A stretch of DNA of 64,000 bases. Source: Bifidobacterium sp. WK012_4_13 (lineage in GTDB: Bacteria; Actinomycetota; Actinomycetes; Actinomycetales; Bifidobacteriaceae). Below, piece after piece: positions 1,029-45,510 of this stretch (within the stretch, counting starts at the first letter, position 1; each line of letters begins with the position of its first letter). The stretch is from the NCBI RefSeq assembly GCF_041080835.1, contig NZ_CP129683.1, positions 1,364,001-1,428,000 of the forward strand. The letters run 5' to 3'. The notes under the pieces were generated by a model. That model was not told the origin of the DNA. It did not search any database and saw only the letters and a program-made list of their open reading frames with translations. Position numbers and translations under genes: made by a program.

Positions 1029-1060
1029 TCAGCTCGATCAGAGAGAAGGGGGAAGTTGGG

Positions 1061-2946: not shown

Positions 2947-3006
2947 TTCATTCAATCTGTTTCTCAACAATCAAACAATGGAGTTTAGAAGGGGAGGAAG
3001 AAGAAG

Positions 3007-4296: not shown

Positions 4297-5349
4297 ATGA
4301 GCAAGACACAATGGGCACTGCGTGCCGATGTACTTCAGAACAGTCTGGACGATTACTTTTCGGCACCGCAGCCCCAATATCTGCATAATCGCTATCCTCA
4401 TACCAAGGAAGATGACGCGCTGTTCAACTATTGGTGGCTCGCTCATGTGATTGACTGCCGGCTCGATGCGTATCAACGCTCTCATGATGCGCATCGTCTC
4501 AGGCAGGCCACGCAGACACATGACAATCTCATCGCGAGGAATCATGGCTCGCTCTTCAATGACTACTTCGATGACATGCTGTGGTTCGCACTGGCCGATC
4601 TGAGACTGTATGAAGCGACTTCCCAACGAAGCTATCTGCAGGAGGTCCTTCGACTCTGGGATCACACGATCGAGAACGGATGGAACGACATTCTCGGACC
4701 ATCGCTGTCCTGGCGAAAGCAACAGCCATATTACAAGAACACTCCGGCCAATGCTCCGCTGTCCATTCTTGGAGCTCGTCTGCATAGGATCACGGGCGAA
4801 CAGCGCTATCTCGATTATTCACGGGCAGCCTTCGACTGGATAACCGACACGCTGGTTCGTTCGGATGGTTTTGTCGGAGACGGCATCAACAGACACCAGG
4901 ATCTCGTCAAAGACGATCAATGGAATTTCACGTATAACCAAGGAACATATATTGGCGCTGCCATCGAAATCGCCGACTGCACCAATGACCCAGGCCTTCC
5001 CCAGCTGGCCATTCGGACGGCAAAGGTCACGCTGCAGGAATTGGTACGCGATGGAGTCTTCGTCGTGGAAGGGGAGAACGGCGACGAAGGACTGTTCAAA
5101 GGCATCTTCTATCGCTATCTAGGCCTGCTCATCGACCATCTCAGTCCGGAATCACATGCCATGCCTGAGCTCATCTCCTTCATCGTTGGCAGCACGGACA
5201 GAATGTGGGAACATGCCAGACGCAACTCAGACGGAGCTCTGCTCCTCGGCAACGATTGGAATGCGCCGTCCCAAGGGCAGCAATACTATTCAACGGAGCT
5301 CAGCGGCATCATGGCTGCAGAGCTGCGTTCACACGTCGAGACAGACTGA
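4297..5349 (+). CDS. GH76 endo-alpha-1,6-mannanase, no signal peptide
   Basis: Glycoside hydrolase family 76, an (alpha/alpha)6-barrel that cuts alpha-1,6-mannan backbones; 350 residues. The catalytic Asp pair of the family is seen at residues 92-93 in YFDDMLWFALA. The conserved substrate-cleft stretch WNFTYNQGTYIGAAIEIAD is also present. There is no signal peptide and no anchor, so the enzyme should act in the cytoplasm on imported oligomannosides, not on polymer outside. It sits 33 bases after the binding-protein gene with a GGAAG site before the ATG and is the last gene of operon 1; hairpins follow it. Confidence 0.9.
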   Translation: MSKTQWALRADVLQNSLDDYFSAPQPQYLHNRYPHTKEDDALFNYWWLAHVIDCRLDAYQRSHDAHRLRQATQTHDNLIARNHGSLFNDYFDDMLWFALADLRLYEATSQRSYLQEVLRLWDHTIENGWNDILGPSLSWRKQQPYYKNTPANAPLSILGARLHRITGEQRYLDYSRAAFDWITDTLVRSDGFVGDGINRHQDLVKDDQWNFTYNQGTYIGAAIEIADCTNDPGLPQLAIRTAKVTLQELVRDGVFVVEGENGDEGLFKGIFYRYLGLLIDHLSPESHAMPELISFIVGSTDRMWEHARRNSDGALLLGNDWNAPSQGQQYYSTELSGIMAAELRSHVETD

Positions 5350-16200: not shown

Positions 16201-16512
16201 GCCATACCCAGCCTCATCGCAGACCTGCAGCTGCGACAGCCATGATCCATCGTCAAAGAGCAGATCGATGCCGACGGCCGTGGCCTCGAAACCATACCCT
16301 GCCTCAGCGTCAGAGTCGAAAACCGGGAAAACCGCATATCGTAGAGTGTCGTGAGATCCGACGATGCGGTCCAGGCTTGCCAGAGGAGTCCTTTGCAGCG
16401 CCTCACCCTCAGCGCTGATCTGATATGCGGTATTGTCCACGCTTTCCAACCCTGTGAAGGAATTGGCGGTCGGCGCACCTTCGGGACCTTGAATGCCTGC
16501 ATTGAATGTCAT
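13201..16512 (-). CDS. GH92 exo-alpha-mannosidase, cytoplasmic
   Basis: Calcium-dependent exo-alpha-mannosidase family 92, about 1,103 residues. An N-terminal beta-sandwich region (to about 160) precedes the GH92 core, which starts near NCAPAVTVPHGFNFGI. The predicted general-acid Glu is intact in DYTETNAWG (about residue 708), and the Ca/base Asp pair in PGDEDNGEMSAWYVF (about 820 and 822). The last 120 residues look like an F5/8 type C (discoidin) domain. No signal peptide is present, so it should trim imported oligomannosides in the cytoplasm. I use ATG 16512, with AAAGG 8 bases upstream, not the in-frame GTG at 16521. It is the last gene of operon 2, 18 bases after the preceding gene. Its exact linkage specificity (1,2, 1,3 or 1,4) cannot be read here. 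Confidence 0.9.
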   Translation of the reverse strand: MTFNAGIQGPEGAPTANSFTGLESVDNTAYQISAEGEALQRTPLASLDRIVGSHDTLRYAVFPVFDSDAEAGYGFEATAVGIDLLFDDGSWLSQLQVCDEAGYGIEPNVQYESKVLSLNQWNDKRIELTAAEGKKVVEADIVCWRSRRSSTMPHGWISDVSIEPGRELSDNPVELIDIRRGTNSSLSFSRGNCAPAVTVPHGFNFGIPITDADDLSWAYKYHADNRDDNLTPLQALAISHTATNWGSERNVLHVMPTPDAASGHCGRGERALGFRHRDEQARPYYYGVRLERHVHAEMTSTDHVVAMRFSMPAGGGLILDQFDSRGSLAFDVENPRFQISGYNESKFGDNPTVPRMFFAISCDRKIASVKSGVIADRENVSAVVTFDTSEPVVLRIATSFISLDQALHSLALEMPEDMTFDDVVERSKKLWEDKLSLVAIDGANDERRISFASSMYRMFMYPNNAAENAGSNETPEWVYADVSDPRDWDHSDVHTGCDLRNGLSYVNNGFWDTYRTIWPAYCLFEPKAAARLLDGFVDHYRASGWIDRWCAPGPTGGMVGSSADIVIANAMISGVDLLDAQSSYDASLRDATTVSNRMQVGRFDNGHAIFRGYASTSTEEGMSWSLEDYLNDFGIAQASQWLFAHADANDPRRDEYRSNASYFRNRAMAYPRLFNKDVGFFMGRNDDGDFRSLPQEFDPRIWGYDYTETNAWGMAFSVPYDGNGLASLYGGPDGLEKKLDAYFSTPETAKFVGSYRRVIHEMVEARDIRMGMFGLSNQPAHHIAYMYAFTAAPYKTQAIVREAVRRLFLGSSIGQGYPGDEDNGEMSAWYVFSSIGLYPLTPASGEMLITSPSVPRSTIAFPNGVKTTIQAHDWSEENVYIQSVQVNGKAWDSLRMPIDVIREGVTIDVHLGPEPSSWGTTSDSPAYSQAYSPLYSLTRRGTSPLVVCDLTDPKDATDNASTSLESSHRESAMPKDSESQSLAASAFDDCFDGGLSLNPSDWVSYEFTERRSVGLYTVSLGKAPIARGSHAEEGAQLGFGWVLEVSDDGSDWRVIDEQNDPSYRWEEQTRAFMIAEPEAATYVRFRVTGHARLDLRQLEYFEG

Positions 16513-16530
16513 TGAACCCACCTTTGAATA

Positions 16531-17331
16531 TCAGTTCCCCATTGTCACTGAAACGATTGCCGGAATGTGATCACTCGCCCAGGCACCATTGACCTGGAAC
16601 GGATATACAGACATCGAATGTACCAGCACGTCTGAAGATACCAGAATCCAATCGATGCGATCCCCACCCTCCACGGGAGCGCGATAATCTACGAAACTGC
16701 CATATTCGGGGGAATCGTGACGTTGTGCAATGCTCCACGCGTCCTTGAACCCGAATGGTCCTGCCATCGCCTCGAACTCTGCCGAGCGCCCCGCAGCCTC
16801 GTTGAAGTCCCCGCACAAGACAATTGGCAGCCCCTTCGAAGCAGCCTTCAGACGCTCACCGATGAGCTTCATCGATGAGATGCGTGCGAGTTCAGAGACG
16901 TTGTCTGTGTGGGTATTGGCAACTATGAACGTGTCTGCTGTCTCCACATCCCTGAGACGTGCCCAGACCGCGATGCGGGTGCAGACATTTCCCCAAGTCG
17001 ATGAAGCAATGACATCAGGCGTGTCGCTCAGCCAGAATTGATCCCATGCATCAACACGGTATCGACATGAATTGATGAAAATGGCGGAATGCTCGCCTTT
17101 GCTCCCTCCTTCCCGACCATAGCCAATCATTTCGTAATCTCTCCCTAGCCCTCGCCTGACCGCGTCTCTCTGATGGAAGAGCAGTTCCTGAGTGCAGAGA
17201 ATGTCAGGTCTGACGTGGTGGATCAGACGTGTCAGCACTGGCTCACGTCTCCCCCAATTATCAGGGCTGTCTGATGGAGAATCCGCATCCATGCGAATAT
17301 TCTGGGTCATGATCGTACATCTGCTAGTCAC
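16531..17331 (-). CDS. Endonuclease/exonuclease/phosphatase-fold hydrolase
   Basis: Metal-dependent phosphoesterase of the EEP superfamily, 266 residues, no signal peptide. Family landmarks are TMTQNIRMD-type start (IMTQNIRMD), DILCTQELL (metal-binding Glu), VANTHTDN, LCGDFNEA, DRIDWILVSS and the terminal ASDHIPAIVSV (catalytic His). The start is GTG 17331, with GAGG 7 bases upstream; ATG 17310 is possible. It lies between tatC and the GH92 gene inside the mannoside operon, not with DNA repair genes. A role on a phosphate ester of the imported glycan, for example phosphomannose, is inferred from context only. Confidence 0.8.
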   Translation of the reverse strand: MTSRCTIMTQNIRMDADSPSDSPDNWGRREPVLTRLIHHVRPDILCTQELLFHQRDAVRRGLGRDYEMIGYGREGGSKGEHSAIFINSCRYRVDAWDQFWLSDTPDVIASSTWGNVCTRIAVWARLRDVETADTFIVANTHTDNVSELARISSMKLIGERLKAASKGLPIVLCGDFNEAAGRSAEFEAMAGPFGFKDAWSIAQRHDSPEYGSFVDYRAPVEGGDRIDWILVSSDVLVHSMSVYPFQVNGAWASDHIPAIVSVTMGN

Positions 17332-19124: not shown

Positions 19125-20459
19125 TCATGCCACGCAATATGGATCCAGCTGTGGCTGAACGCGTTTTTGCGCCGTCTCAAGAGCCTGTCTCGGCGTTGCA
19201 GAACCCTGCTGAAGCGACGATGTCGCCGCATCCAGCGAATTCCAGAGGAGATTGCCGACTGGTATCGCCGGTCGATGTGAGGAATATGCCAGCGCATCCG
19301 CGAAGAAGCTGATGCTTTTCTGATAGGACTTGTCCTCAAGCGCCTTGTGATCGGCCGGAAGGGCGATATATCGCTTCAGGGCTGTGCTCTCACCAGGATC
19401 ACTGCAGTAATACTTCATGAATTCCCACATCATCTTGGACTTGTTCGCGCCCTTCGGCACACATAGGCCGAAGCCTCCCGACCATGTCTTTGGCTTCTGT
19501 CCCTTCTTCTTCACAGGCAGATAGGTCACCCCGTATTTGAGATCCTTGACATATTCCATAACCGTCGACAGGGAAGAGGGAACCATGACCTGCATGGCAA
19601 GTCTTCCACTGTTGAACGCGGACTGTGCAGGCGGATGATTCGGCGGTTCATAGGTTGCCGTGAACGTATCGACCTTCTTGTAGTTCAATCGCTTGATCCA
19701 GCCTGCAAAGTCGTTGGCGCTTTCGACCAGCTTCGGGTCGAGCAGGGTCACCGAGCATGAGTTGCGATCATAGAATTGCGCACCGTTGTTGTTCGCCCAC
19801 GTATAGAGACTCCCCTGATCCTCCCATGGAATGAATCCCATGTATGTGTAGTTGCCCTTGGAGTCAGTTCTGGTGAACTGATCGGCTATCTTCCAGACCT
19901 CCTCGAAGGTCGGAGCGCCGTTCTTCGGATCGAGCGCACTGATGTCAATGTTCGCCTTTTCCAGAGCCCCCTTGTTATACACAAGCACACGAGAATCGGT
20001 GGTAAACGGCAGACCATATAGCTGATTCCTGTAGGTCATCTCGTCGATGGTGAAGTCAAGCCACTGACCGGTGACATCCTTGACCGAATCGGTGTCATAT
20101 TTCTTGATTATGGGATTTATCGGCTCCAAAAGACCTATCGCGGCATACTGGACGGTCGTGAATCTATCCAGAAGCCACAGATCTGGGGCCGTTCCGCTCC
20201 GGACCGCGGTGATGACCGCCGAAGCGTCTCCCTGCGTGGAAGTGGGTACCTGGGATTGCTTGACCTTGAATTCAGGATGGATCTTCTTGAACTTCCTGAT
20301 GATCGCCTCCTGACTCGGCAGGTCATTTGCCCATAGTCCCCATAGATTCACGTAGTTGGGATCGGCTGCGCTGCCACAGCCTGAAAGGGTGAGCGCGCCT
20401 GCTCCCAGTACCGTCGCTCCCAGCGAGAGTCGCAGAAAATCACGGCGTGAGACCATCAT
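19125..20459 (-). CDS. ABC sugar-binding lipoprotein with twin-arginine signal
   Basis: Family 1 extracellular solute-binding protein, 444 residues. The N-terminus is a Tat lipoprotein signal: SRRDFLR at residues 4-10 fits the S-R-R-x-F-L-K consensus, followed by a mildly hydrophobic core and lipobox LSGC with Cys28. The mature domain starts with VNLWGLWANDLPSQ, and PFTTDSRVLVYNKGALEKA is family-typical. A strong AAAGGAGG site precedes the ATG. It is the substrate-capture subunit for the two permeases encoded just upstream, and tatB-tatA-tatC follow it. The mannoside substrate is inferred from the GH38 and GH92 genes of the same operon. Tat export would imply folding in the cytoplasm before secretion. 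Confidence 0.92.
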   Translation of the reverse strand: MMVSRRDFLRLSLGATVLGAGALTLSGCGSAADPNYVNLWGLWANDLPSQEAIIRKFKKIHPEFKVKQSQVPTSTQGDASAVITAVRSGTAPDLWLLDRFTTVQYAAIGLLEPINPIIKKYDTDSVKDVTGQWLDFTIDEMTYRNQLYGLPFTTDSRVLVYNKGALEKANIDISALDPKNGAPTFEEVWKIADQFTRTDSKGNYTYMGFIPWEDQGSLYTWANNNGAQFYDRNSCSVTLLDPKLVESANDFAGWIKRLNYKKVDTFTATYEPPNHPPAQSAFNSGRLAMQVMVPSSLSTVMEYVKDLKYGVTYLPVKKKGQKPKTWSGGFGLCVPKGANKSKMMWEFMKYYCSDPGESTALKRYIALPADHKALEDKSYQKSISFFADALAYSSHRPAIPVGNLLWNSLDAATSSLQQGSATPRQALETAQKRVQPQLDPYCVA

Positions 20460-20535
20460 GACACCTCCTTTGATTCGTCAATGCGAGTTGATGGATGCAA
20501 GGCCTGACCCTTGTCGGATGCTGCTGCGGTTCGTG

Positions 20536-21474
20536 TCATTTGAACGCTCCCATCGTGATGCCTGAGATGAAGTAACGCTGGAACACAAAGAAGAGCAGCA
20601 CAAGAGGCAGCAGCACCAGCACACTCGCCGCCATGAGCAGCCCATAGTTGACGTTCGTTCCCCCCGTGCTTTGGAAGAACTGCAGACCGATTGCCAAGGT
20701 CTGCACGCTTTCATCGTGCAGATAGATCAACGGACCCATGAAATCGTTCCACGCGCCCACCGCGGAGAAGATTGCGATGGCCGTGAGCGCCGGCCCTGTC
20801 ATCGGGAAGACGATGGACCATGCGAGCTTCCATTCGCTGGCACCGTCGACTCGAGCGGCATCCAGCAGATCTCGTGGAATCTGTGACATGAACTGCCGCA
20901 GCAGGAATATGTTGAATCCGCTTCCAAACAGTGCCGGCACAACAAGTGGAATGAAGGTATTGATCGTGTGAAGCCCCGCCCAGAAATCGAACATGGGAAT
21001 GAGGGTGATGGGCATGGGAATGAACAGGGTGGCAATGACGACGAAGAAGATCTTGTCACGCCATGGCCAATCGATGCACGAGAATCCATACGCAATCACG
21101 AAGTTCGCGACAACGTTGAACAGGGTGCTCAGCGCAGTGATGATGACGGTATTGCGGAAATATGTCAGGAATGGCATCATCTTCGTTGCGTTAAGGAAGT
21201 TCTCCCAGTGCCATTCCCTGGGCCATAGTGTGGGTGGGTATTGCGCCAGCTCTTGCGGAGACTTCACCGCCGAGATGACCATCCAATAGATTGGGAGCAG
21301 GAACAGCAGCAGCACGAGGAACAGGATTATCCTCGCAGCCCATGCGCTGTACCAGGGCGCCCTCGATCCATCCGCCCTCTTGTTGTATTTGCTTGTTTTT
21401 CTTATTCCATCGTTGCCGCTCTTGCCGACTCCCGGCTGCGCGATTTGAGCGACGGGCGAAGCACCATGTGTCAT
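20536..21474 (-). CDS. ABC sugar transporter permease, MalG type
   Basis: CUT1 permease of 312 residues with a 40-residue polar N-terminus and six predicted membrane segments. The EAA loop is DAARVDGASEWKLAWSIVFP and the C-terminus QRYFISGITMGAFK is the usual MalG end. GAAAGGA precedes the ATG. It is 11 bases after the MalF-type gene and is followed by the binding-protein gene. Confidence 0.9.
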   Translation of the reverse strand: MTHGASPVAQIAQPGVGKSGNDGIRKTSKYNKRADGSRAPWYSAWAARIILFLVLLLFLLPIYWMVISAVKSPQELAQYPPTLWPREWHWENFLNATKMMPFLTYFRNTVIITALSTLFNVVANFVIAYGFSCIDWPWRDKIFFVVIATLFIPMPITLIPMFDFWAGLHTINTFIPLVVPALFGSGFNIFLLRQFMSQIPRDLLDAARVDGASEWKLAWSIVFPMTGPALTAIAIFSAVGAWNDFMGPLIYLHDESVQTLAIGLQFFQSTGGTNVNYGLLMAASVLVLLPLVLLFFVFQRYFISGITMGAFK

Positions 21475-21485
21475 GATGAGTCCTT

Positions 21486-22475
21486 TCAGTCAGCCGAAAC
21501 GTCGTAGTTAACGAACTTCTGTGAAATCCAATACACGAAGTAGGCAAGGATGATGCCAAAGACGAAGAGCAGCAGCGCCATAGCCGACGCATAGCCCAAT
21601 TGTGCATACCCGAATGCGTTGTTGTAGAGATACAGCATGTAGAACAATGTGCCATTGTCAGGACCGCCGTTGGTCATGATGAATGACTGCGTGAAGATCT
21701 GCAATGCTCCGGAGATTCCGGTTATGAGGTTGAACAGAATCGTCGGCGTCAGCAGGGGCAGGGTTATCGAGAAGAACTGCCTTATGGGACCGGCGCCATC
21801 AACACGGGCCGATTCATACAGCGTTCCTGGAATGTTGTGCAGACCTGCCAGATATATCAGCGCGGCATTTCCTGCGCCCAGCTGAGCCATGACGACCATA
21901 ACCACTTTTGCAGTCATGGGATCGCCCAGAAGATTCGAGTTAGGAACCCCAAACCAGCCCAGGAATATGTTGAACAGACCCATCGTGGGATTCGTGAACA
22001 CGATGAATATGAACGACAGCGCAAAGGCCGGAACAAGCGAGGGTATGTACAGCGCCGTTCTGTAGAGGGCCACCTCACGGACATTCTTGTTCATTGCGAA
22101 TGCCAGCAGCAAGGCGACGACCAATCCTATCGGAACTGCCATCGCCGCATATATGAGCGTGTTTTCCACTGACTTTGCAGTCAAGGGATCCGTGAATGCG
22201 CTCTTATAATTCTGCAGACCTATGTATTCCGGATTGTTCATGCCGGAATATCGGGTGAAGCTTATGACTGTCGAGTATACGATCGGATAGATCATGAACA
22301 CGCAGAAACCGATGATCCACGGGGAGATGAAAAGCAATCCTATCCTTGTGTTCCTTTTTTCATGTTCGGTCCATCTATGCCGGCGCTTCACTCGTTTCTT
22401 ACCACTGGTGAGTGAAGTCTCGGCCTCGTGGATGTTCTTCGGAGCTAGACCCCCAACCCCAACTAAAGTAGACAC
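21486..22475 (-). CDS. ABC sugar transporter permease, MalF type
   Basis: CUT1 permease of 329 residues. A polar N-terminus (ending RRHRWTEHEKRNTR) precedes six predicted membrane segments beginning with IGLLFISPWIIGFCVFMIYP. The EAA loop reads YESARVDGAGPIRQFFSITLP. Start GTG with AGGAGG 6 bases upstream. It follows the GH38 gene by 43 bases. Confidence 0.9.
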   Translation of the reverse strand: MSTLVGVGGLAPKNIHEAETSLTSGKKRVKRRHRWTEHEKRNTRIGLLFISPWIIGFCVFMIYPIVYSTVISFTRYSGMNNPEYIGLQNYKSAFTDPLTAKSVENTLIYAAMAVPIGLVVALLLAFAMNKNVREVALYRTALYIPSLVPAFALSFIFIVFTNPTMGLFNIFLGWFGVPNSNLLGDPMTAKVVMVVMAQLGAGNAALIYLAGLHNIPGTLYESARVDGAGPIRQFFSITLPLLTPTILFNLITGISGALQIFTQSFIMTNGGPDNGTLFYMLYLYNNAFGYAQLGYASAMALLLFVFGIILAYFVYWISQKFVNYDVSAD

Positions 22476-22518: not shown

Positions 22519-25500
22519 TTATTCGACTTCCTTTCTCAAACGCAAGGTACTGATTTGGAAAGGCTTCATGCTCAGGAATATCTGATGGTCCTCATTCGCG
22601 AGAAGCTTGGGTGAACCATTCGACGAATCCTGCCGAGGCCATGACGAATCGTTGGAAAGCGAAGATTCAAGGGCATCACACCGATCGGCGCCCATGAATG
22701 TTCGATCGAGCTGGATCTGGACTGTGCCACGGCCGCCATGGGACTCATAGAGGCGGACGATGACGTCGCCCGACTCGTCATCCGCGAGTTTGATCGCCTC
22801 TATCACGGCATTGCCATCGACGATAGACGCAAGAGGCGCAACGGTCCGCGCACCATTGAGATGGTGGACTGGCGCGTTGAGTCGGTAGCCGTCCTCGATC
22901 GCATCCTCCACATCGGCACCGACCAGAAGATCGGTCTTCATCATGAAACTTCCCTGATCGGCATGTGGGTCAGGGGCCTCGGGGCCGCGAAGCAGCGATT
23001 CGCCGATGACCGTATACGGTCCCTTGCGTCCCGTGGCGCGGAATATCCCATGCCCATAGGTCTGATCGTTGGCGATGGCGACTCCGAAGTCGCCCTCTTC
23101 GACTCTGACCCAGCGCTGGGCCATCGTCTCGAACCGTGCCTTCTGCCACGAAGTGTTCGTATGTATTGCACGCGTGAGATGCCCGAACTGGATTTCAGAT
23201 TGAGCGAAATCAGTCATCAGATCCAGTGGGAACTCAAGCTTCAGGAGCTTTCGCTTTTCATGCCATTCGATTGCCGTCGTGAAACCCACCTGAGATGCAT
23301 GGGGAGCAAGGCAGATGGTCTGTCTATACGAGCTCTTCCCATGGTGACGTGTAATCGTCGCAACGGCAGCGCCGCTGTCGTCATGGGTCACGCTGACGCT
23401 GTCGCAGGAATCGATGACCTGCTCATGGCGACGGTAGTCATCGTCTATGTTCCACGCATCCCATTGGTTTGGAATGTCTCTGGCGATGACCAGCTTCCCG
23501 AGCGACTCGTTTTCAGGAATTAGCTGGCGTGCCCTTCTCCTGTCGACAAGCGAGTCCACCATGCCGCTCCCGCTCAGATGCAGTTCGAGAATTCCGTTGT
23601 CAATGGTCCACCCATCCCCATCGCAATCACGAATGTCCACCCGATCGAGGCTCTCGCTTCGCGCTTCGCCTATCTCTCCGGCACGGACTCCATCGACCGT
23701 GAAGGCTCCAGGATTGACGGCAAGTGTGAGATCCCCCTCTCCCACAAGTGCCTTCAGACTGGCGTCGATGATGCGTTGGGCACGGTCCATGAGATCCGCA
23801 TACATTCGTGTGGCATCCTCGTACACCCATTCGATCGCAGACCCCGGAAGGATGTCATGGAATTGAAGCAGCAACGCCGTCTGCCACAGATCGTGCAATT
23901 CATCATACGGGTATTGATCCCCCTCTCGGACAGCAGCGGTGGCAGCCCACATCTCAGCTTCGCGCAGCATATGCTCGCTGCGTCTGTTGCCTGCCTTCAT
24001 GTTGTGCTGTGATGTCAGCACTCCACGATGATTCTCCAGATAGAGTTCGCCAACCCATGTGGGAGCGTCGGGATACTCGCCTTCAGCCTGTTCGAAGAAA
24101 GCCTCGGGAGAGGCAAGCCTCACGCGAGGAGATGCCTCCATGTTCTGCTGCCTATGTGCAAGTTCAAGCATGTCGCGGGTTGGACCACCGCCGCCGTCGC
24201 CGAATCCGTAAAGCAGCATCGTTGACCTTGCCGAACCCAGTTCCTTGAAATTCGATTCTCCCCTTGCCAATTCCTCCGGACTGAAAGTGGCACCATACGT
24301 ATCCGCAGGAGGAAAATGAGTGAACACTCTGCTGCCATCGATGCCCTCCCACCAGAAGCTGGAATGAGGGAACACGTTGGTGTCATTCCACGACAGCTTC
24401 TGAGTGAGCATCCACTTCATGCCAACGTGCCGAGCGATTCCTGGCAGTGCCCCGGAATACCCAAAGCTGTCGGGCAGCCAGACTATCGAAGGCTTGACGT
24501 TGAAATACTTCTTGAAGAAGGCAATCCCCTCGCTGAATTGACGGATGTATGCTTCCGAGCCGATCATGTTCGCGTCGGCTTCGACCCATTCACCGCCCAC
24601 GACAACCCAGCGGCCTTCCGCAACGCGTTTCTGAATTCTCTGGAATATATCGGGATGGTCTTCCAGCAGCCACTTATATTGCACGGCACTGGACGCGGCG
24701 AAGGTGAACTGTGGGTCCAGGTCCATCAGATACAGGACGTTGGAGAAGGTGCGCGCAACCTTGCGACGCGTCTCCCGCAGAGGCCAAAGCCATGCGGAAT
24801 CGATATGCGCGTGCCCAACGGCATATACGTTGGTCGCCGATGCCACGGCCGGACTGTCCAGCGCCGGCTTCAAGGCCTTGCGCGCGGCCTGCACGCTGCC
24901 TCGGACATCGTCGGGGTCAAGCGCATCTATCGCCAGACTCAACGCGTGGATGATATCCGCCTTGCGCGTGCTTCTCTCTGGCAGGACATCAGCCCATCCA
25001 CGCAGCACCATGACATCATAGACAAAGCCATCGGCCTCACTGTCTATCGAAAGGAGCTGGGCCTTTCTCAGACGATAGATGGGCTCCTTGCCGGCCGTCT
25101 TTCTCGAGCCAAGAGGCATGGGAGTGGTCCACCCAAAGCTGGCAATGTCCGGATTCGAAGCGGCCTCTACATAGAACTCAACATGGTGCTCAGCCGCGTC
25201 AGAGAGCTCACCCTCCAAGGGGATGTTCAGATTGCGTGGCTCAATGCCCTTGACGACGGTGCCATCCGGGCGATATACGGTTCCCTCTGCCTGGAATCCC
25301 GGCCCGCCGCCTTGGAATCCAAGATCGATGGCCAGCTCAATCCTCTGATTGGCAAGGTCTGCGCGATGCAGCCAGTGCGCCGGTATCGTCCCGGAAATGT
25401 GAAACCAGGTCGTGCCCCATGGGAATGACCAGTTGTCACCAACCGATGTGGGCTCGAACTCGTGTGCGACTGCCTCCTTGAATGTGACGGGCTCTCCAGG

Positions 25501-25614
25501 AGCTTCCCATCTCGAAACGCTCACGGCAGTGCTTTCAGTAATGCGACCGGGAACGACCCAGTCTTTTACCAAATGATCGATACGCTCACAGATTGCATTT
25601 TCTTCTAAGAACAC
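22519..25614 (-). CDS. GH38 alpha-mannosidase
   Basis: Zinc-dependent retaining alpha-mannosidase, 1,031 residues, no signal peptide. An N-terminal beta domain (1-260) is followed by the GH38 barrel. Zinc ligands are seen in GHAHIDSAWLW (about 267-277), the predicted nucleophile Asp382 in WLPDSFGYSG, and a third motif in GFGDGGGGPTRDML. The mid and C-terminal beta-sandwich domains complete the usual length. Start GTG 25614 with AAAGGGG 8 bases upstream. It opens a nine-gene minus-strand operon that runs to GH92 with gaps under 110 bases throughout, so hydrolysis, uptake and binding-protein export are likely co-expressed. A promoter is visible upstream. Confidence 0.92.
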   Translation of the reverse strand: MFLEENAICERIDHLVKDWVVPGRITESTAVSVSRWEAPGEPVTFKEAVAHEFEPTSVGDNWSFPWGTTWFHISGTIPAHWLHRADLANQRIELAIDLGFQGGGPGFQAEGTVYRPDGTVVKGIEPRNLNIPLEGELSDAAEHHVEFYVEAASNPDIASFGWTTPMPLGSRKTAGKEPIYRLRKAQLLSIDSEADGFVYDVMVLRGWADVLPERSTRKADIIHALSLAIDALDPDDVRGSVQAARKALKPALDSPAVASATNVYAVGHAHIDSAWLWPLRETRRKVARTFSNVLYLMDLDPQFTFAASSAVQYKWLLEDHPDIFQRIQKRVAEGRWVVVGGEWVEADANMIGSEAYIRQFSEGIAFFKKYFNVKPSIVWLPDSFGYSGALPGIARHVGMKWMLTQKLSWNDTNVFPHSSFWWEGIDGSRVFTHFPPADTYGATFSPEELARGESNFKELGSARSTMLLYGFGDGGGGPTRDMLELAHRQQNMEASPRVRLASPEAFFEQAEGEYPDAPTWVGELYLENHRGVLTSQHNMKAGNRRSEHMLREAEMWAATAAVREGDQYPYDELHDLWQTALLLQFHDILPGSAIEWVYEDATRMYADLMDRAQRIIDASLKALVGEGDLTLAVNPGAFTVDGVRAGEIGEARSESLDRVDIRDCDGDGWTIDNGILELHLSGSGMVDSLVDRRRARQLIPENESLGKLVIARDIPNQWDAWNIDDDYRRHEQVIDSCDSVSVTHDDSGAAVATITRHHGKSSYRQTICLAPHASQVGFTTAIEWHEKRKLLKLEFPLDLMTDFAQSEIQFGHLTRAIHTNTSWQKARFETMAQRWVRVEEGDFGVAIANDQTYGHGIFRATGRKGPYTVIGESLLRGPEAPDPHADQGSFMMKTDLLVGADVEDAIEDGYRLNAPVHHLNGARTVAPLASIVDGNAVIEAIKLADDESGDVIVRLYESHGGRGTVQIQLDRTFMGADRCDALESSLSNDSSWPRQDSSNGSPKLLANEDHQIFLSMKPFQISTLRLRKEVE

Positions 25615-37813: not shown

Positions 37814-40800
37814 TCAGTCTCTTCCAGCTCGTGATCTGCCTGAGAATCTCAATGCCGCTCCCAGCGCTCCGAGAAGCATCGCAAGGGCAATGATGATGGC
37901 GAGTGGGCTTCCCGTCGTGGCCAAATCGGCATTCTCACTTGCGGACTTGCGTGAGGCATCCGATCCAGGCTCTCCGACCTTGCCTGCCAGACCGCCAGCC
38001 TGAGACCCAGCCATTCCCGTATTGGAACCGAACGATCCGCTGCCTGGCTGCGAACCCGAATTCGAACCTGCGCCTGTGCCACCTTGAGAACCCGATGACG
38101 ACCCGCCTGCCGTTCCTGTCCCCGTTCCCGAGTGCGACCCCGAACCGGAATCGTCGCCACCGGAGTTGCTCCCAGCCACTATGGAGAAACCGACTGAAGC
38201 GGACCAGTCTCCCGCGCCCTTTGCATTGCGTGCACGCACCTCGACAGTGTGCCGGCCTTTGGAAAGATTGCCTATCACGAGCGAAAGCTGGCTTGCATTG
38301 GTCTGCAACGGGGTCTTTCCCCCATCGATGCGGACATCATAGCCAGATATCGCGGAGTATCCGTCCTTCTCCGGTACCTTCCATGAAACCGTGACCTCGT
38401 TTCCCTTGCTCTTGGCGCTCACTCCCTCCGGAATGCCTGGAATGGTGACATCCGAGAGAAGAATCAGCGCATTCTCCGCTCCGACCAAGGTCCGATCCGC
38501 CGCATTCAAGGCATCGTCAGACGACGTGCTGATTCCAGACACATTCCTTGCGTTGGACAGCGCGTCATCGAACACCTTCCAGGTGTCCGCAGTGTATTGA
38601 GCCGAGTCGAGATCAGCTGCATCCGCTATATCGTATTCCAACTGCAGCCGTGCCTTCGGAATCAATTGCCGAATCGCTGCCTTCATCTGGTATGTCGCCT
38701 CGTCAACATCCGCCTGCGTCGCCACCGAGTTGGACACGGTCGCCTGCGACGCGGCAAGGACCTTTGCGAATGCGGCGTAGTCGACATCCGTGTACCGAGC
38801 CTTGTCCTTGACATATTGCTGCGCCGAATCAAGCTGCTGATTGAGTGCGGTCACGTCAAGCGTCGCCGGCTTCTCCGAGAATGCCAGGCTGTCGATGTTG
38901 GCAACGTAAGGATGGCTGCTGTCCGCAGTGGTGACCAGCTTGAGATACACGGTGTGCGTTCCTGTTATCGAGCTTGGAAGATCCACCGTCGTGGAGCCCT
39001 CGGTGTACCAATCGCTTCCGGTCGCAGGCAGTGCGATGGTGGCGAATGGCGTTCCCAGATCACTTTCCGAGGCCGCATCGAGATACATTTCGATACTTGA
39101 ATTCGTCCCGCATCGATTGCTGTTGTTGACATAGTTCACCGTCAGCCGCTGCAGGGCGGAGGAACCGAAGTCGACGTCGTCGTATCTCAGCCAGTCGCCG
39201 TTGCTGGTCCCCTTCAGAACCGTCTGCGACTTTCCAGTGTTGCTCATCGTATCGGTTTCGACACCAAGATTCGTACCACCACCCTTGTCTTGGAAGGATT
39301 CGGCTTCAAGCGTCTTGGTCGCTGAGCTGTCGTCCGTCTGCGTCCCAAATCGGAAGTAGTCGAAGTTCGATGCCCACGTGCGCCCAGAAGGAGCATGGAA
39401 CACGAACGAGACCGTTCCCGCTGCGGCGAGCTTTGCGAGCGCATCGGCGCTCAGTTCGGTTTCGACACTCGCATACTTGTCGTATCCGCCGGTTCCTTGC
39501 AGATCGACGGTCGCTACGACCGGGCTGTCCTTGTCCCCTGCATGGACTTCGACGGTGCTTGGCGTATCGCTCGCCGCATAGTTCGCGGCATATCGAACCG
39601 TGATCTGCGTCGTTTTGCCAGTCTTCGCGGCTGCGACAAGCGAATCGAAGTCCATGTCATTGTATTGGATCCAGGCACCGTCAGCGACGCCTCCCAGATC
39701 ACCATCCGAGTAATATGCTTCGTTCTTCAGGTCACCGCCAGACCACGCATCGCTGCTCTCAGCCTGCAGGGTGCGCAACGCGGATCCATGTATCGCCAAC
39801 GCGGATGCTGCGGATTGCAGCTTCTCGCCGGCCGACTGCACGTCGCTGGAGGTTGCGGCTGCGTCGGCGAGCACCTTCTGCGCCTGCTTCAGGGCATCGG
39901 AGAAGGCTTGATGGCTTTTGGTCGTGAAACTGACATCCTGTTCGATCTTCAAGTCATCGACGATGCCCTGCAGATCGAGCTTCTCCTTGCTGGTGATGTC
40001 GATGCTCAGCGGTTCCTGCACGCTCAGGCCTGGGCCGGAGAGCGATGAGGAAAGCGCTCCGTCCGAGAATGCGGCATCTGTCAACCCGATGTGGAAGTTC
40101 GTGGCTGCCTCGACGGTTCCATCGAGCTGCACAGTCAAGCTGTGATCGCCGGTGATCCGGGCCGTGACCTTCACTGTCCCAGGCAGACCGACAACGGTCA
40201 TGGCACCGCTTGACAGCGGATCTTCGCGCACGACTTGACTCGTGGCGAATGCTATGCCGTTGGGCAGCGTGAAGTTGAACGAGCCCTTGATCCTACCCGT
40301 TTCATCGGTGGTTATCGATGTCTTGTCAACCATTGCACGGTATGTCGATTCGTATGCTCCCGTGCTGGTTGGATCGCTCAGCGAATATGCCGCCGCACCA
40401 TTCGAACCCCAATCCGACGCGGTCGACTGCATGTCGAAGGACAGGCTTCCACCTGCAAGCAGTTCACTGTAATCCACCCAGGTGTTGTTGTAGGCCTTTC
40501 CGTTCAGTGTGGCTCCACCAATGTAATAGTTGGACGAGGAGGCGCCCTTCGCATTGATGGTGAAGCTTCGACCATCGCTTTGCTTGATCTTCACGCTGTC
40601 AAAGAATGGGCTTCCGATCTGATACTGCGACGATCCCGCTGTCACGGGGAACAGCCCGATGGCAGAGGCGACGAAGGTCGCCGACATCGTGCCTGCATCA
40701 TTGTCCATCGTCGGCAGGAATCCCTGCGGCGACAGCTTATAGACGCTGGCCTTTATCGGTGGCGTGAATTCGCCATTGCTGCTCGAATACTCATCGGTGC

Positions 40801-43800
40801 TGCCAGTTGCAATGTATCGGTTCCACGAGGGCTCGGTGAATATCTGACGCACCCATTTCTGCGTGCTGCTCGCCTGACCTACGTAATTGAACAGGTATTC
40901 CGTCTGCAGATCCACCTCATTGGTATTGGAATGCAGGATGCTGGAAGGATCGTCATTGCCGTCTTCGCCGAACATGTGGTGGAGGGCATCGGTCATTGCG
41001 GTCTTGCCACCCATGGCAGTCTGAAGACCTGCCATGTCATAGGCGTCATACCAATTGTATTGCCACAGCGTTCCTTGATATGCGTTTGCTGCCTGGAACT
41101 GTTCGAGATCGTCGTTCGCGAATGCACCCGAGCTGTTCTTCGACGATAGGACGTTCACCTTGGTCCCATCAGCCGCAGTCCACGCATCTTCCTTGTATTG
41201 GTTCGCAAGGGGAAGTGCCGCGAGCTGCGCATAGTTCTTGGCGTCATCAGCCTTGTTCAGCCGCGTGGCAATGATCGACATCGCCCAGTCGTCGTAACCG
41301 CGCTGCAGCGAGTCAGTCGGGTGATCGGCGATATAGCCCGCCTTCAACTCATCGGCGGTGTAGCTGCCGACAAGTCGCTGCAATGCAGGATACGCCTGCG
41401 ACAGATTTTCGAAACCTGTGTATCCCTTTGATATGGCATCCGCGATGATAACCGCGGAGCGTTCGAAACGGACCGTTGGCACGGACTGCATCAGATCTCC
41501 CGGCAGCTTGGTATCGCTTGCGGCCTGCGTGTCCGCGAAGATATTGATGAGCGACTGTGCCATGTCTCGATAGATTTCAGGGTAGAGATACGCGATGACC
41601 GAGAATTTTCGGAAGTCGTCCCAGCCTGACCACCCATCATATTCCGTATAGCCATTGGCCTTATGCACAACGCCGTCGACTCCTCGATATGTTCCCGATG
41701 TGCTGGTCGCGTTGACCGGCACAGCAAGCGTACTGTACAGATGCGTATAGAAGAGGCGTTTGAGCGTGCCGTCAGGGTCATTGGTCGACGATGCCGTGAC
41801 GTCGATGCGCGAGAGCAGGCTCTCCCAACTGTCTGCAGTATTCTGGCGCACCTGGGTGAAGGTGCTCGATCCGACCTCTGCCTTCTGGTCTGTCTTTGCC
41901 TGCGCTGCACTTATCGGGGACAGCGTGATGCGCAGATCGACCGGCTTGCCTGTCGACGTGCCGAAGTTAAGTACGGCGCCCGTATCCACACCGGATTGCT
42001 CCGTTGCGGAACTCGAATCGGCGATGTCTTGGAGAGAGCCGCCATCTCCCCAGGTCTGCACCGAATCGACCGGCTGATCGGTCGTCGCATAATAATACAG
42101 CGTGTAGTTCGGACCGTTGAACGAACCTTCAACCTTGCCGGATATGGCAATCGTGCCGTCATCGAGCTTCTGCACGCTCAGCGAGGATGCGATGCGCGAG
42201 GTGAAGTTATTCTTCAGGTCGAACACCACTGACTGGCGCTGACCTTGGGGGAAGGTGTATTCGTGCATTGCCGTCCGCGTCGTCGCAGTCACCTGTGCAT
42301 TGATGTATCCATCGGCTTGCTTGAAGTCCGAGTCGGTTCCTGAGCTGGAACGCAGATCGACGGAATAGTATCCCGGCGTTGCGCTTTCCTTGTCATGCGA
42401 GAAGGAGTGGGCATACGATGCCGTCGCAGGACGCTTGGTATATGAAACCGATGTCGGAACGACCAAGATGTCTCCGCCGCCACCCGATCCGCCGACTCCG
42501 TCAAGATTGTCATTCGTGAAGCCGGATATCTGCGTCGACGAATAGTTATACCCCGTGTGGTTGCGGTTGGAGGTGCTCAGAGGATTCACCTTTGCCAATC
42601 CATTCGGCGCCTCGGCTCCAGGCATGTCATTGCCATCGTCATCGGCTGTCGATACGAATGGGTCCACATACTGAGACATTGCACCGACCTGAACCGCCTC
42701 CTTCAACTTCACGACATAAGTATGGGAACTCGATCCATCAGCTGCGGTCACCACGATGGTCACTGCGCCGCCGCTGACCGAGGTCTTCACCGTAGCCTTC
42801 GAATTCGCCGTGGTCGCCTTGACGTCGTCTGCCGTTATGCCTGCAGCGCCGTTGACCTCGATGGTTGTGCCATCGCTGCTTGACGCCTCATCCACGTCTG
42901 CTGAAACGCCCTTGACCTGAATCGAAGACAGAGCCACATTCGTGGAAGGCAGCTCCTCGACCGTGACCGAGCCGTCTGCGTTCACCGTTACATGCGCGCT
43001 GAGGGCGGCGGCAAGATTGATGCGTTCCCAGCTTGCCTCATTCTCATTGGAACGATCGAGTGGATACCCCGAATCCAATGAGGTCTGCTCGATAATCGAC
43101 TTGCGTTGCGCATCGCTCAGATTGGGGTACTTGGTAATCAGCAGATCCTCGGCACCGGTCGGAATGATCAGGGAAGCCCCACTCGCCTGAACCTGGGGGA
43201 AACCATAGGTAAGCCTGTCCGTGTACGTCGACGTCGCCTGCGTGTCCGTCGCGACATCACCGGCGCACGATGCGATCGAATCGCCATACCCTGCGATCCT
43301 GCACTGGCCCAGCAGCACCGATTCCATCTCCTGATGGGCCTCTTGGAAGAGCTTCTGGAATTCAGGATCGCTCCAACGGTATCCGATCATGGCCTGCGCT
43401 CCCATGCGGCCTCCCATGACATCGATCGGGTAGTGGAAACCGAGCACGATTCGATTGTTGCCATATTCCGAGGTGCGTTGAAGCATCTGAGGCGCCAGTT
43501 CAGACAGCAGAGTCGCCAGAGTGGTTCCGGCAACATAGCCCGCCGTGGTGTGTCCGCTCGGGAATGAGTCGTTCGAGAAGCCATAGCCGATATTCTTCTC
43601 ATCGATGCGACCGATCAGCCGCTGATACGGTCTGGCCTCCTTATATTCGTTCTTTGCGGCGTCATGGCCGTCGATGCCGCTCGTGACCATGGCAAGCACC
43701 TGCGCCGTCTTGGGCAGCTTGCCTGAAGACATGGCCTTGAGATAAAGACTGCCTAGATTCGTCCCATATGCGTCACTCATGGTCTGGACCGGCGAATTAT

Positions 43801-45292
43801 TCGCATCGTTTATGGCCTTGTCGACCTGTGCGGTCGATGCGGTGTTATTTATTTGGACGATCTTCTTATCGTTCAGCGCTGTAAGCTTTTCACCGGGTTC
43901 AACCGTCTTGCCGCTCCAGACGCTCGGCGAGTCACTCAAATCGGTATAGCCCTTGAGCAGATCGACCCAATAGTCCTTCCCATCTGATGTCGCTGGCCAG
44001 GTACTCGAAGAATATTGAGCCGTGTATTCCGAATTCGTGTATGAGAATGACAGATAGTCAGAAGTCGCATAGAGCTGCGGCATGTCAAAATAGGCATCCG
44101 AGCTTGTGCCATTGCATTGATGGACCTCCACTGCAATGACATTGTCGCCGGCTTTCAAGACCGAGGCCGGAATGCTGAATAGGGCGGTCTGCGGATCCTC
44201 GCCCCCACCGAAGTTCAGAGGGGTGGTGTTCGAATCGACGTCGCCGTCATTGAAACCGGCGACTCGAGTGCCGTTGACATAGACCGTCGCTGTGTCGTCA
44301 AAGGTTATCTGTCCGATCAGGCCACCGATGCTGGCAAGTTGGGTGGAATCGAGGGCGAAGCTACGCTTGAAGAAATAGGCGGGGACGATTCCGTCAGCGC
44401 CGAGATAACGCTTGATGACCGTATTCGCGGTGAATCCGTCTCCAAGGTCTGCGGTATCGCTGTTATTGCTGTTCTTCACGCCGAAGGAAGCGGTTCCGCT
44501 CTTCCAGCCCGCCGAGGCGTCTGCATCGGAAACGCTGGTCGTCCACGACGTGCGATCACTCGCACCATGCGTCGGATCGCTCGTCGACTTCGTCGAATCC
44601 GTGGTGTCCCAGTATTCCCAATCCTCGGATTGCAGACCTGAGACATCCATTCCCTGCTGCTGGCCAACGAGGGTCCAGTCGGCCATCTGAAGCTGGTTGG
44701 TGCTGGTGCCGTCACTTTTATCGGTGATTCTCAGCTGGTAGTACTTGTATGCCTGGGGCTTGGCTATCGGGAATCCCCTGACCTGGTGGCGGTCGGAGAA
44801 GCTTTGACCGCTCTGTGAATCGAGCTGCTTCCATGAGGACGACGAAGCGTCCGCCGCCGCGGCATCGTCGTTGCTTCCGAGGACCGTCCAGCTTTTTGGA
44901 TCCCTGTTCTGAGAGTCATTTCCCGATGTGATGGTGTATCCGTATGCCGAAGACGCCTTGCTCAGCGAATAGATCACATATACCGGCGATGCCGAAGTCG
45001 GGGCGGCCTCGCCCTCATACCACTTGGTGCTTTCGTCGTTGTCCTTGACCTGCGAGACCGATTCCGAACCCGATCCCGCATGGTTGGAGCTTGCAGTCGA
45101 AACGAGCTCCTGTATGGATGTGGATGAGGCATCCTTCAATGAATCCGCCGTTTGGCTCAACGCATTCTGAGCCGTCGTCTGCGTGGACGACGTATCGTCT
45201 GCGGCCATTGCCGATGCTGGCATACCTGCAAAGAAAGTTCCTATCGTTGCAATCATCGCAACGCATAGCATGCCTGTTCGTGAATGTTTCAT
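37814..45292 (-). CDS. Giant wall-anchored PAP2 phosphatase-GH92 fusion
   Basis: 2,492 residues from ATG 45292 (GAGGGG 4 bases upstream). Domains in order: signal peptide (to about 31); discoidin-like (55-210); galactose-binding-like sandwich (225-410); PAP2 acid-phosphatase domain (about 440-665) with KEARP, SFPSGHTT and NNRIVLGFHYPID; a cadherin-like domain (785-865); GH92 (870-1,635) opening SQYVDPFVSTADD; FIVAR (1,770-1,835); two CBM6-like domains (1,840-1,985, 1,993-2,140); two FIVAR (2,145-2,280); FN3 (2,285-2,375); a Gly/Ser linker; LATTG at 2,457-2,461, a membrane helix and a basic tail. In GH92 the base Asp pair is kept (MDNDAG, 1,530 and 1,532), but the general-acid Glu of the YxEGxxWQY motif is Gln1406 (AYQGTLWQY, CAA at 41075-41077). 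It is preceded by two LacI-type operators. Role inferred: extracellular attack on phosphomannan. Confidence 0.9.
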   Translation of the reverse strand: MKHSRTGMLCVAMIATIGTFFAGMPASAMAADDTSSTQTTAQNALSQTADSLKDASSTSIQELVSTASSNHAGSGSESVSQVKDNDESTKWYEGEAAPTSASPVYVIYSLSKASSAYGYTITSGNDSQNRDPKSWTVLGSNDDAAAADASSSSWKQLDSQSGQSFSDRHQVRGFPIAKPQAYKYYQLRITDKSDGTSTNQLQMADWTLVGQQQGMDVSGLQSEDWEYWDTTDSTKSTSDPTHGASDRTSWTTSVSDADASAGWKSGTASFGVKNSNNSDTADLGDGFTANTVIKRYLGADGIVPAYFFKRSFALDSTQLASIGGLIGQITFDDTATVYVNGTRVAGFNDGDVDSNTTPLNFGGGEDPQTALFSIPASVLKAGDNVIAVEVHQCNGTSSDAYFDMPQLYATSDYLSFSYTNSEYTAQYSSSTWPATSDGKDYWVDLLKGYTDLSDSPSVWSGKTVEPGEKLTALNDKKIVQINNTASTAQVDKAINDANNSPVQTMSDAYGTNLGSLYLKAMSSGKLPKTAQVLAMVTSGIDGHDAAKNEYKEARPYQRLIGRIDEKNIGYGFSNDSFPSGHTTAGYVAGTTLATLLSELAPQMLQRTSEYGNNRIVLGFHYPIDVMGGRMGAQAMIGYRWSDPEFQKLFQEAHQEMESVLLGQCRIAGYGDSIASCAGDVATDTQATSTYTDRLTYGFPQVQASGASLIIPTGAEDLLITKYPNLSDAQRKSIIEQTSLDSGYPLDRSNENEASWERINLAAALSAHVTVNADGSVTVEELPSTNVALSSIQVKGVSADVDEASSSDGTTIEVNGAAGITADDVKATTANSKATVKTSVSGGAVTIVVTAADGSSSHTYVVKLKEAVQVGAMSQYVDPFVSTADDDGNDMPGAEAPNGLAKVNPLSTSNRNHTGYNYSSTQISGFTNDNLDGVGGSGGGGDILVVPTSVSYTKRPATASYAHSFSHDKESATPGYYSVDLRSSSGTDSDFKQADGYINAQVTATTRTAMHEYTFPQGQRQSVVFDLKNNFTSRIASSLSVQKLDDGTIAISGKVEGSFNGPNYTLYYYATTDQPVDSVQTWGDGGSLQDIADSSSATEQSGVDTGAVLNFGTSTGKPVDLRITLSPISAAQAKTDQKAEVGSSTFTQVRQNTADSWESLLSRIDVTASSTNDPDGTLKRLFYTHLYSTLAVPVNATSTSGTYRGVDGVVHKANGYTEYDGWSGWDDFRKFSVIAYLYPEIYRDMAQSLINIFADTQAASDTKLPGDLMQSVPTVRFERSAVIIADAISKGYTGFENLSQAYPALQRLVGSYTADELKAGYIADHPTDSLQRGYDDWAMSIIATRLNKADDAKNYAQLAALPLANQYKEDAWTAADGTKVNVLSSKNSSGAFANDDLEQFQAANAYQGTLWQYNWYDAYDMAGLQTAMGGKTAMTDALHHMFGEDGNDDPSSILHSNTNEVDLQTEYLFNYVGQASSTQKWVRQIFTEPSWNRYIATGSTDEYSSSNGEFTPPIKASVYKLSPQGFLPTMDNDAGTMSATFVASAIGLFPVTAGSSQYQIGSPFFDSVKIKQSDGRSFTINAKGASSSNYYIGGATLNGKAYNNTWVDYSELLAGGSLSFDMQSTASDWGSNGAAAYSLSDPTSTGAYESTYRAMVDKTSITTDETGRIKGSFNFTLPNGIAFATSQVVREDPLSSGAMTVVGLPGTVKVTARITGDHSLTVQLDGTVEAATNFHIGLTDAAFSDGALSSSLSGPGLSVQEPLSIDITSKEKLDLQGIVDDLKIEQDVSFTTKSHQAFSDALKQAQKVLADAAATSSDVQSAGEKLQSAASALAIHGSALRTLQAESSDAWSGGDLKNEAYYSDGDLGGVADGAWIQYNDMDFDSLVAAAKTGKTTQITVRYAANYAASDTPSTVEVHAGDKDSPVVATVDLQGTGGYDKYASVETELSADALAKLAAAGTVSFVFHAPSGRTWASNFDYFRFGTQTDDSSATKTLEAESFQDKGGGTNLGVETDTMSNTGKSQTVLKGTSNGDWLRYDDVDFGSSALQRLTVNYVNNSNRCGTNSSIEMYLDAASESDLGTPFATIALPATGSDWYTEGSTTVDLPSSITGTHTVYLKLVTTADSSHPYVANIDSLAFSEKPATLDVTALNQQLDSAQQYVKDKARYTDVDYAAFAKVLAASQATVSNSVATQADVDEATYQMKAAIRQLIPKARLQLEYDIADAADLDSAQYTADTWKVFDDALSNARNVSGISTSSDDALNAADRTLVGAENALILLSDVTIPGIPEGVSAKSKGNEVTVSWKVPEKDGYSAISGYDVRIDGGKTPLQTNASQLSLVIGNLSKGRHTVEVRARNAKGAGDWSASVGFSIVAGSNSGGDDSGSGSHSGTGTGTAGGSSSGSQGGTGAGSNSGSQPGSGSFGSNTGMAGSQAGGLAGKVGEPGSDASRKSASENADLATTGSPLAIIIALAMLLGALGAALRFSGRSRAGRD

Positions 45293-45441
45293 GCTTCCCC
45301 TCACACCTCAAACCGATCGAATTCAATCAGCGAATCCCCTGATCCGGTAAAACCCCAGATAAGGCTATAGGAAGACACTCTTGAATCGACGACTTGCAGA
45401 TGAAAGGAGGGATAAGGGAACATGAAGTTTAGGTAAACACA

Positions 45442-45455
45442 TGATAGCGCTTACA
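45442..45455. promoter_or_regulatory. LacI/cre-like operator, promoter-proximal copy
   Basis: TGATAGCGCTTACA, centred on the palindrome AGCGCT, about 150 bases before the giant gene. Its reverse complement differs from the copy at 45497 by one base. Confidence 0.65.
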
Positions 45456-45496: not shown

Positions 45497-45510
45497 TGTA
45501 AGCGCTTTCA
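45497..45510. promoter_or_regulatory. LacI/cre-like operator, distal copy
   Basis: TGTAAGCGCTTTCA fits the consensus of LacI/CcpA-type sites. It is placed 55 bases from its partner, close to a whole number of helical turns, as expected for cooperative or looping repression. Confidence 0.65.

Follow-up and report, generated by a model that had tools for sequence, protein, structure and literature searches.

Predicted uncapping and dephosphorylation of mannosyl phosphate by a wall-anchored GH92-PAP2 protein of Bifidobacterium

Described systems and the fused protein

The GH92 enzyme CcMan5 from Cellulosimicrobium cellulans (PDB 2xsg and 4aq0) acts on Man-α-1,6-PO4-Man linkages (PMC5930347). In the yeast-mannan pathway of Bacteroides thetaiotaomicron, a GH38 enzyme takes off phosphate-attached mannose and phosphatases then remove the phosphate (PMC10154615). 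Here we analyze a 64,000-nucleotide stretch of the genome of Bifidobacterium sp. WK012_4_13 (the window), in which a minus-strand gene encodes a 2,492-residue protein containing both a CcMan5-type GH92 domain and a PAP2 domain of the class A acid phosphatase type. Class A acid phosphatases are non-specific enzymes with the motifs KX6RP, PSGH and SRX5HX3D. Phosphate leaving groups need no general acid, an idea that Tiels et al. reportedly drew from the Gln found in CcMan5.

The encoded protein is probably a secreted, wall-anchored enzyme acting in two steps on phosphorylated fungal mannan or phosphorylated N-glycans. In the first step, an inverting, Ca-dependent GH92 domain would cut the C1-O bond of Man-α-1-phosphate-6-Man with the Asp pair as the base, giving free mannose and an exposed Man-6-phosphate. 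Since phosphomonoesters leave readily, a general acid would be dispensable here, and Gln would therefore stand where other GH92 proteins have Glu. The PAP2 domain would then take off the exposed phosphate as inorganic phosphate, with the CBM6 modules holding the mannan, and the end products would be mannose, phosphate and an uncharged glycan open to other mannosidases. From homology, catalytic residues, fold, domain order and the repeated pairing with phosphatases, we infer both activities, their order and the substrate. Taken separately, the uncapping role of the GH92 domain is very likely on homology, and the action of PAP2 on the phosphate exposed by GH92 is quite likely, since two unrelated phosphatase families are joined to Gln-type GH92. 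Yeast phosphomannan is the probable main substrate.

The open frame comprises 2,496 codons (37814-45304) and reaches a GTG at 45304, but a Shine-Dalgarno-like sequence, GAGGGGAAG, precedes the ATG at 45292, and a start there gives 2,492 residues; the two residue numberings are offset by 4. In the 2,496 numbering, Pfam searches matched PAP2 at 536-640 (41.2 bits, cut-off 27.2), GH92N at 879-1129 (175.1 bits, cut-off 34.5) and GH92 in two stretches, the best at 1135-1490 (286.7 bits, cut-off 24.6, E 4.8e-85). CBM6 (in two stretches) and fn3 were also matched in the protein, together with a single FIVAR match (1793-1836) under its cut-off, whereas the Pfam search gave no match for the X domain, and none at 0.01 for the N1 domain (Table 1). 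An earlier note on this DNA had read PAP2 motifs and a full GH92 domain in one protein of 2,492 residues, with which the Pfam matches, the motifs and the start at ATG 45292 agree. Secretion and wall anchoring, also proposed there, are predicted from sequence and hydropathy: inspection revealed a putative signal peptide, an LPXTG-like motif (LATTG at 37910-37924), a hydrophobic stretch peaking near residue 2467 and a basic tail. LAXTG motifs suit class E sortases.

Glutamine at the general-acid position of GH92

The GH92 domain of the window protein has the same fold as CcMan5 and 55% identity to it across 763 structurally aligned residues. Its Gln1406 aligns with the Gln of CcMan5, and the Asp pair is retained in the aligned columns as D-x-D within MDNDAG, a motif shared with CcMan5. 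The relationship to a Cellulosimicrobium enzyme, mentioned in the earlier note, is therefore correct and closer than one common residue. Lys1233, Arg1279, Lys1293 and His1458 (2,496 numbering) are conserved without exception within this clade but not among the Glu types, and are candidates for contacts with the phosphate. The GH92N and GH92 matches above curated cut-offs and the Asp pair place the domain in family GH92, but it was not classed as an ordinary GH92 α-mannosidase because the general acid Glu is replaced by Gln; sequence clade, fold and Gln assign it to the CcMan5 type (CcMan5 is represented in the tree by C. cellulans loci). In the other GH92 protein of the window the corresponding residue is Glu (YTETNAWG), as had been noticed before, and searching the genome yielded no GH92 frames beyond these two.

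A single scan of genome contigs, with peptide patterns that were taken from the query and left out the Gln itself, revealed 82 relatives, of which the best 80 were analyzed. Gln occupies the acid position in 80 of these 80 loci, while seven additional GH92 copies within them have Glu. In view of this count and of the GH92 E value, neither the family assignment nor the Gln is a matter of chance. The constancy of Gln, the retained Asp pair and the activity of the Gln-bearing CcMan5 make it extremely improbable that Gln is a neutral change in an ordinary α-mannosidase or in a dead GH92 domain serving as a lectin, a reading that can draw on acid-to-Gln variants of an ordinary GH92, which were substantially weakened on mannobiose (PMC10167667).

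A protein of 2,507 residues that shares the domain order of the window protein, N1-X-PAP2-link-GH92 (L122:5100-12620, minus strand), came to light through a PAP2 match in Cellulomonas sp. HZM. Its GH92 domain is only distantly related (122 bits) and matches the Glu-type 6f8z (249 bits) better than CcMan5 (122 bits), yet it has Gln at the acid position. This domain was searched against 121 genomes from the family to which Cellulomonas sp. HZM belongs, and the loci of 30 matches including the strongest 18 were read (second-clade loci: L122, L126-L139 and L156-L168). All 14 matches of at least 565 bits, L122 included, have Gln, and the other 16 loci read have Glu. When wider regions around them were read, one of these 14 domains (L122) proved to be fused to PAP2 and four (L162, L163, L164 and L167) to purple acid phosphatase (PF16656 and PF00149). 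The two Gln clades stand apart in a quick tree, with two changes and support of 100 each in the Shimodaira-Hasegawa-like approximate likelihood-ratio test (SH-aLRT); a single origin of Gln is not favored by this tree, though the approximately unbiased (AU) test did not reject a single Gln clade (p = 0.07). We lean toward the view that the acid was lost for phosphodiester uncapping at least twice in GH92, in the CcMan5 clade and in a clade of the family of Cellulomonas sp. HZM, some members of each clade being joined to PAP2 or purple acid phosphatase in differing orders.

Linked phosphatases and their meaning

The PAP2 domain matched the profiles of the class A acid phosphatases 1iw8, 9jq0 and 1d2t, and a Foldseek search with its predicted structure agrees with this assignment. 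It has the motifs KX6RP, PSGH and RX5HX3D and the predicted fold of the class A enzymes PhoN, PhoC and EB-NSAP (PDB 2a96, 9qcj and 1d2t), but differs from them in forming part of a wall-anchored carbohydrate enzyme. Among the 60 PAP2 domains compared, with that of B. jacchi entered twice, 59 have all three motifs intact; the fused PAP2 of Streptomyces lushanensis (L019:14224-15018) deviates at two of them. A quick PAP2 tree placed the window protein, B. psychraerophilum and B. jacchi in one group (98) and 45 C-terminal PAP2 domains in a separate group (96).

The earlier note knew of no other protein with both steps. A unique fusion is ruled out by 46 of the 80 loci, in which GH92 comes first and PAP2 last, the reverse of the window order, within one open reading frame (ORF) or ORF piece. 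Among them, L018 is cut by a contig end, and L086 and L061 have frame breaks (inside GH92 and near the start of the GH92 region, respectively) that leave the remaining GH92 and PAP2 in the same ORF piece. In these Streptomyces-type GH92-CBM6-fn3-PAP2 proteins (L016 and 45 further loci) both domains are homologous to those of the window protein, but PAP2 is C-terminal, and neither N1 nor X was seen in L007, L010 and L016, the three representatives read; the L007 copy of the post-PAP2 domain overlaps a sub-cut-off Pfam Cadherin-like match. The portion of the open-access literature covered by our search held no description of these proteins or of any GH92-PAP2 fusion.

The window order itself recurs in B. 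jacchi (L054:3-7437), where a frame break separates PAP2 from the greater part of GH92, and in the tandem genes of B. psychraerophilum (L085), where N1-X-PAP2-link is followed by GH92. The latter is one of four loci with PAP2 as a neighboring gene, together with C. arenosum (L013), C. terreum (L024) and Luteimicrobium (L076), and in Microbacterium excoecariae (L065) the gene immediately upstream encodes a purple acid phosphatase according to Pfam. That relatives join both steps in several ways suggests that the pairing matters. The C. cellulans GH92 ORFs examined, unlike the window protein, contain no PAP2, although CBM6-like modules follow GH92 in C. cellulans locus L052 as they do here. Compostimonas suwonensis carries two tandem Gln-type GH92 genes (L062:2855-14670).

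In 189 genomes of the host's family, GH92 was present in three. The PAP2 query matched 58 of these genomes at E 1e-8, exceeding 200 bits only in the three with GH92 (other matches reached at most 109 bits), one of which has a frame break (G079, whose pieces match B. jacchi L054). An even sample of the class (394 genomes) contained GH92 in six, PAP2 in five and both in three; without the genome of the window (393) the counts were five, four and two (hypergeometric p = 0.0008). Among 33 genomes outside the C-terminal fusions, PAP2 was matched at E 1e-8 in 11 and above 180 bits in ten, four of which are the neighboring-gene loci. At the ORF level, a fused phosphatase accompanies 46/80 Gln-type against 0/24 Glu-type GH92 (Fisher p = 6e-8), and 5/14 against 0/24 for the second clade (p = 0.004); none of these p values takes account of relatedness or of the sampling by similarity. 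The 24 Glu-type tree rows (22 distinct proteins) showed neither PAP2 nor purple acid phosphatase in their ORFs, the Glu-type loci from the L122 search spanning about 5.3 kb each with at least two ORFs cut.

Several observations weigh against a two-step enzyme. In 28 of the 80 loci, as examined, PAP2 and the related purple acid phosphatases are both absent, and nine of the 14 second-clade loci (L168 among them cut by a contig end) show neither; a linked phosphatase is therefore not required, and its presence with every Gln-type GH92 was rejected. Pfam analysis of ten ORFs near the GH92 of six such loci and of L171, chosen by length and some perhaps not genes, revealed no PAP2 or purple acid phosphatase, the only phosphatase-like match being the HAD domain of a P-type ATPase; few other phosphatase families were covered. 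Three of the six class-sample genomes with GH92 lack PAP2: one has purple acid phosphatase directly upstream, another about 5 kb upstream, and in the third none was found. The PAP2 model is mediocre (predicted local distance difference test score, pLDDT, 76; Foldseek root-mean-square deviation 5-12 Å), and Asn replaces the Ser ahead of the motif Arg, which we take as a minor difference, as Asn is found in 26/26 alignment rows including the window. In C. cellulans genomes with PAP2, it is a separate gene elsewhere, adjoining a Glu-type GH92 gene in the two genomes read. Finally, no secreted endo-mannanase that would make the uncapped polymer importable was found: the only GH76 found looks cytoplasmic, and the genome-wide search did not extend to GH99, GH18 and GH85.

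The PAP2 domain could also be a general phosphate scavenger, in which case GH92 would uncap mannosyl phosphate and the fusion would merely put a broad acid phosphatase on the cell surface. The non-specificity of class A enzymes, the 28 loci without a linked phosphatase of either kind and the separate PAP2 genes beside Glu-type GH92 genes are in line with this, but Gln-type GH92 is paired in several arrangements and also with an unrelated phosphatase family, whereas none of the 22 distinct Glu-type GH92 ORFs includes a phosphatase of these two kinds. We consider the scavenger unlikely and prefer the two-step enzyme.

Mannan island, upstream region and significance

The GH125, GH76, Glu-type GH92 and GH38 proteins and the two ATP-binding cassette (ABC) transporters encoded in the window, which also contains regulators, form a set that fits α-mannan. 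The EEP-family protein encoded next to the Glu-type GH92 matched the mannosyl-6-phosphatase 4c1r (113 bits) and the related 3g6s (142 bits). We take 4c1r to come from the yeast-mannan pathway of B. thetaiotaomicron, which shares the two-step logic but differs in using separate enzymes, a GH38 rather than a GH92 uncapper, and intracellular action after import. The two steps proposed in the earlier note are supported by the phosphatase pairings, in several arrangements and two superfamilies, and by this homologue, while its yeast phosphomannan is a substrate that we infer.

The same chemistry on other α-linked sugar-1-phosphate diesters, such as bacterial wall or capsule polymers, would suit the occurrence of CcMan5-like GH92 in many actinobacterial genera and the short stand-alone Gln-type GH92 of Solimonas flava (Pseudomonadota; L067:6666-11448), which lies beside an α-galactosidase and may reflect transfer between phyla. 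Against the α-mannan set of the island, with its mannosyl-6-phosphatase homologue, this substrate is very unlikely; moreover, yeast mannan is bound by CBM6 module a, though not by module b, of a C. cellulans GH92 (PMC5798181).

Two LacI-type operator-like palindromes lie upstream of the gene. The strict pattern TGWWAGCGCTTWCA matched at these two sites only in the 2.47 Mb genome, and a loose search with one mismatch gave four matches in the window against a shuffle mean of 2.2; an operator tying the gene to the mannan island is unsupported, the strict pattern being found only upstream of this gene. A promoter and terminator scan gave no more matches than shuffles. A TatC protein (PF00902, E 5e-45; 17441-18283, minus strand) is encoded inside the island, a UvrA-like protein of only 862 residues, under the UvrA cut-offs, adjoins the gene (45717-48305, minus strand), and a large surface protein has collagen-binding and SpaA domains (29401-33786, minus strand).

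Table 1. Features of the fused gene and of its surroundings, in window positions
Feature	Positions	Strand	Basis or remark
Whole gene	37814..45292	-	ATG 45292, stop at 37814, 2,492 aa
Sec signal peptide (putative)	45200..45292	-	Sequence and hydropathy scan
N1 domain, CBM32/discoidin-like by inspection	44645..45217	-	Homologue of the N1 encoded in separate PAP2 genes (L085, L076, L121)
X domain	44075..44647	-	In relatives, likewise located ahead of PAP2 or purple acid phosphatase
PAP2 domain, class A acid phosphatase type (residues about 406-676 of 2,492)	43265..44077	-	Pfam PF01569, PDB class A acid phosphatases, Foldseek
PAP2 motif KX6RP (KNEYKEARP)	43628..43654	-	
PAP2 motif FPSGHT	43547..43564	-	
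PAP2 motif RX5HX3D (NRIVLGFHYPID)	43421..43456	-	
Post-PAP2 domain, probably cadherin-like beta sandwich	42695..43267	-	Accompanies PAP2 in relatives
GH92 catalytic region, CcMan5 type (residues about 866-1656 of 2,492)	40325..42697	-	
Codon CAA, Gln1406 (Gln1410 in 2,496 numbering), general-acid position	41075..41077	-	
MDNDAG, Asp pair (D-x-D), general-base position	40691..40708	-	
CBM6-like module a (limits set by us)	39275..39757	-	Pfam and comparison with relatives
CBM6 module b	38876..39268	-	Pfam PF03422 and comparison with relatives
Spacer region	38435..38857	-	Conserved among relatives
Fibronectin type III domain	38192..38431	-	Pfam PF00041
Wall anchor: LATTG, hydrophobic stretch, basic tail	37817..37927	-	
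LacI-type operator-like palindrome TGATAGCGCTTACA	45442..45455	+	Upstream of gene
Second operator-like palindrome TGTAAGCGCTTTCA	45497..45510	+	Upstream of gene
EEP-family protein, homologue of solved mannosyl-6-phosphatase 4c1r	16531..17331	-	No signal peptide; adjoins Glu-type GH92
Second GH92, Glu type	13201..16521	-	No signal peptide seen
GH76	4297..5349	+	Only copy found in genome; no signal peptide seen
GH125 α-mannosidase family protein	108..1028	+	
GH38 α-mannosidase family protein	22519..25614	-	
ABC transporter (two permeases, binding protein)	1025..4263	+	
Second ABC transporter (binding protein, two permeases)	19125..22475	-	

Each piece of this protein belongs to a known kind, and sequence data show the fusion to be common; what looks new is the fused arrangement, the use of another phosphatase in its place and the existence of a second Gln clade. 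Uncapping is a required step in making Man-6-phosphate glycans from yeast (PMC5992200), and the two Gln clades offer, in their GH92 parts, new uncapping candidates for such production, for which the natural fusion is also a warning that an attached phosphatase could destroy the Man-6-phosphate product. Gln at the acid position would be a residue-level marker that aids the prediction of function from sequence. If the proposed function is true, the protein would provide a one-protein route from mannosyl-phosphate mannan to neutral mannan, and the change from Glu to Gln with a linked phosphatase would mark a class of uncapping and dephosphorylating enzymes that exploit fungal walls as a source of mannose and phosphate. 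Fungal phosphomannan would thereby be indicated as a source of carbon and phosphate for a Bifidobacterium-like organism.
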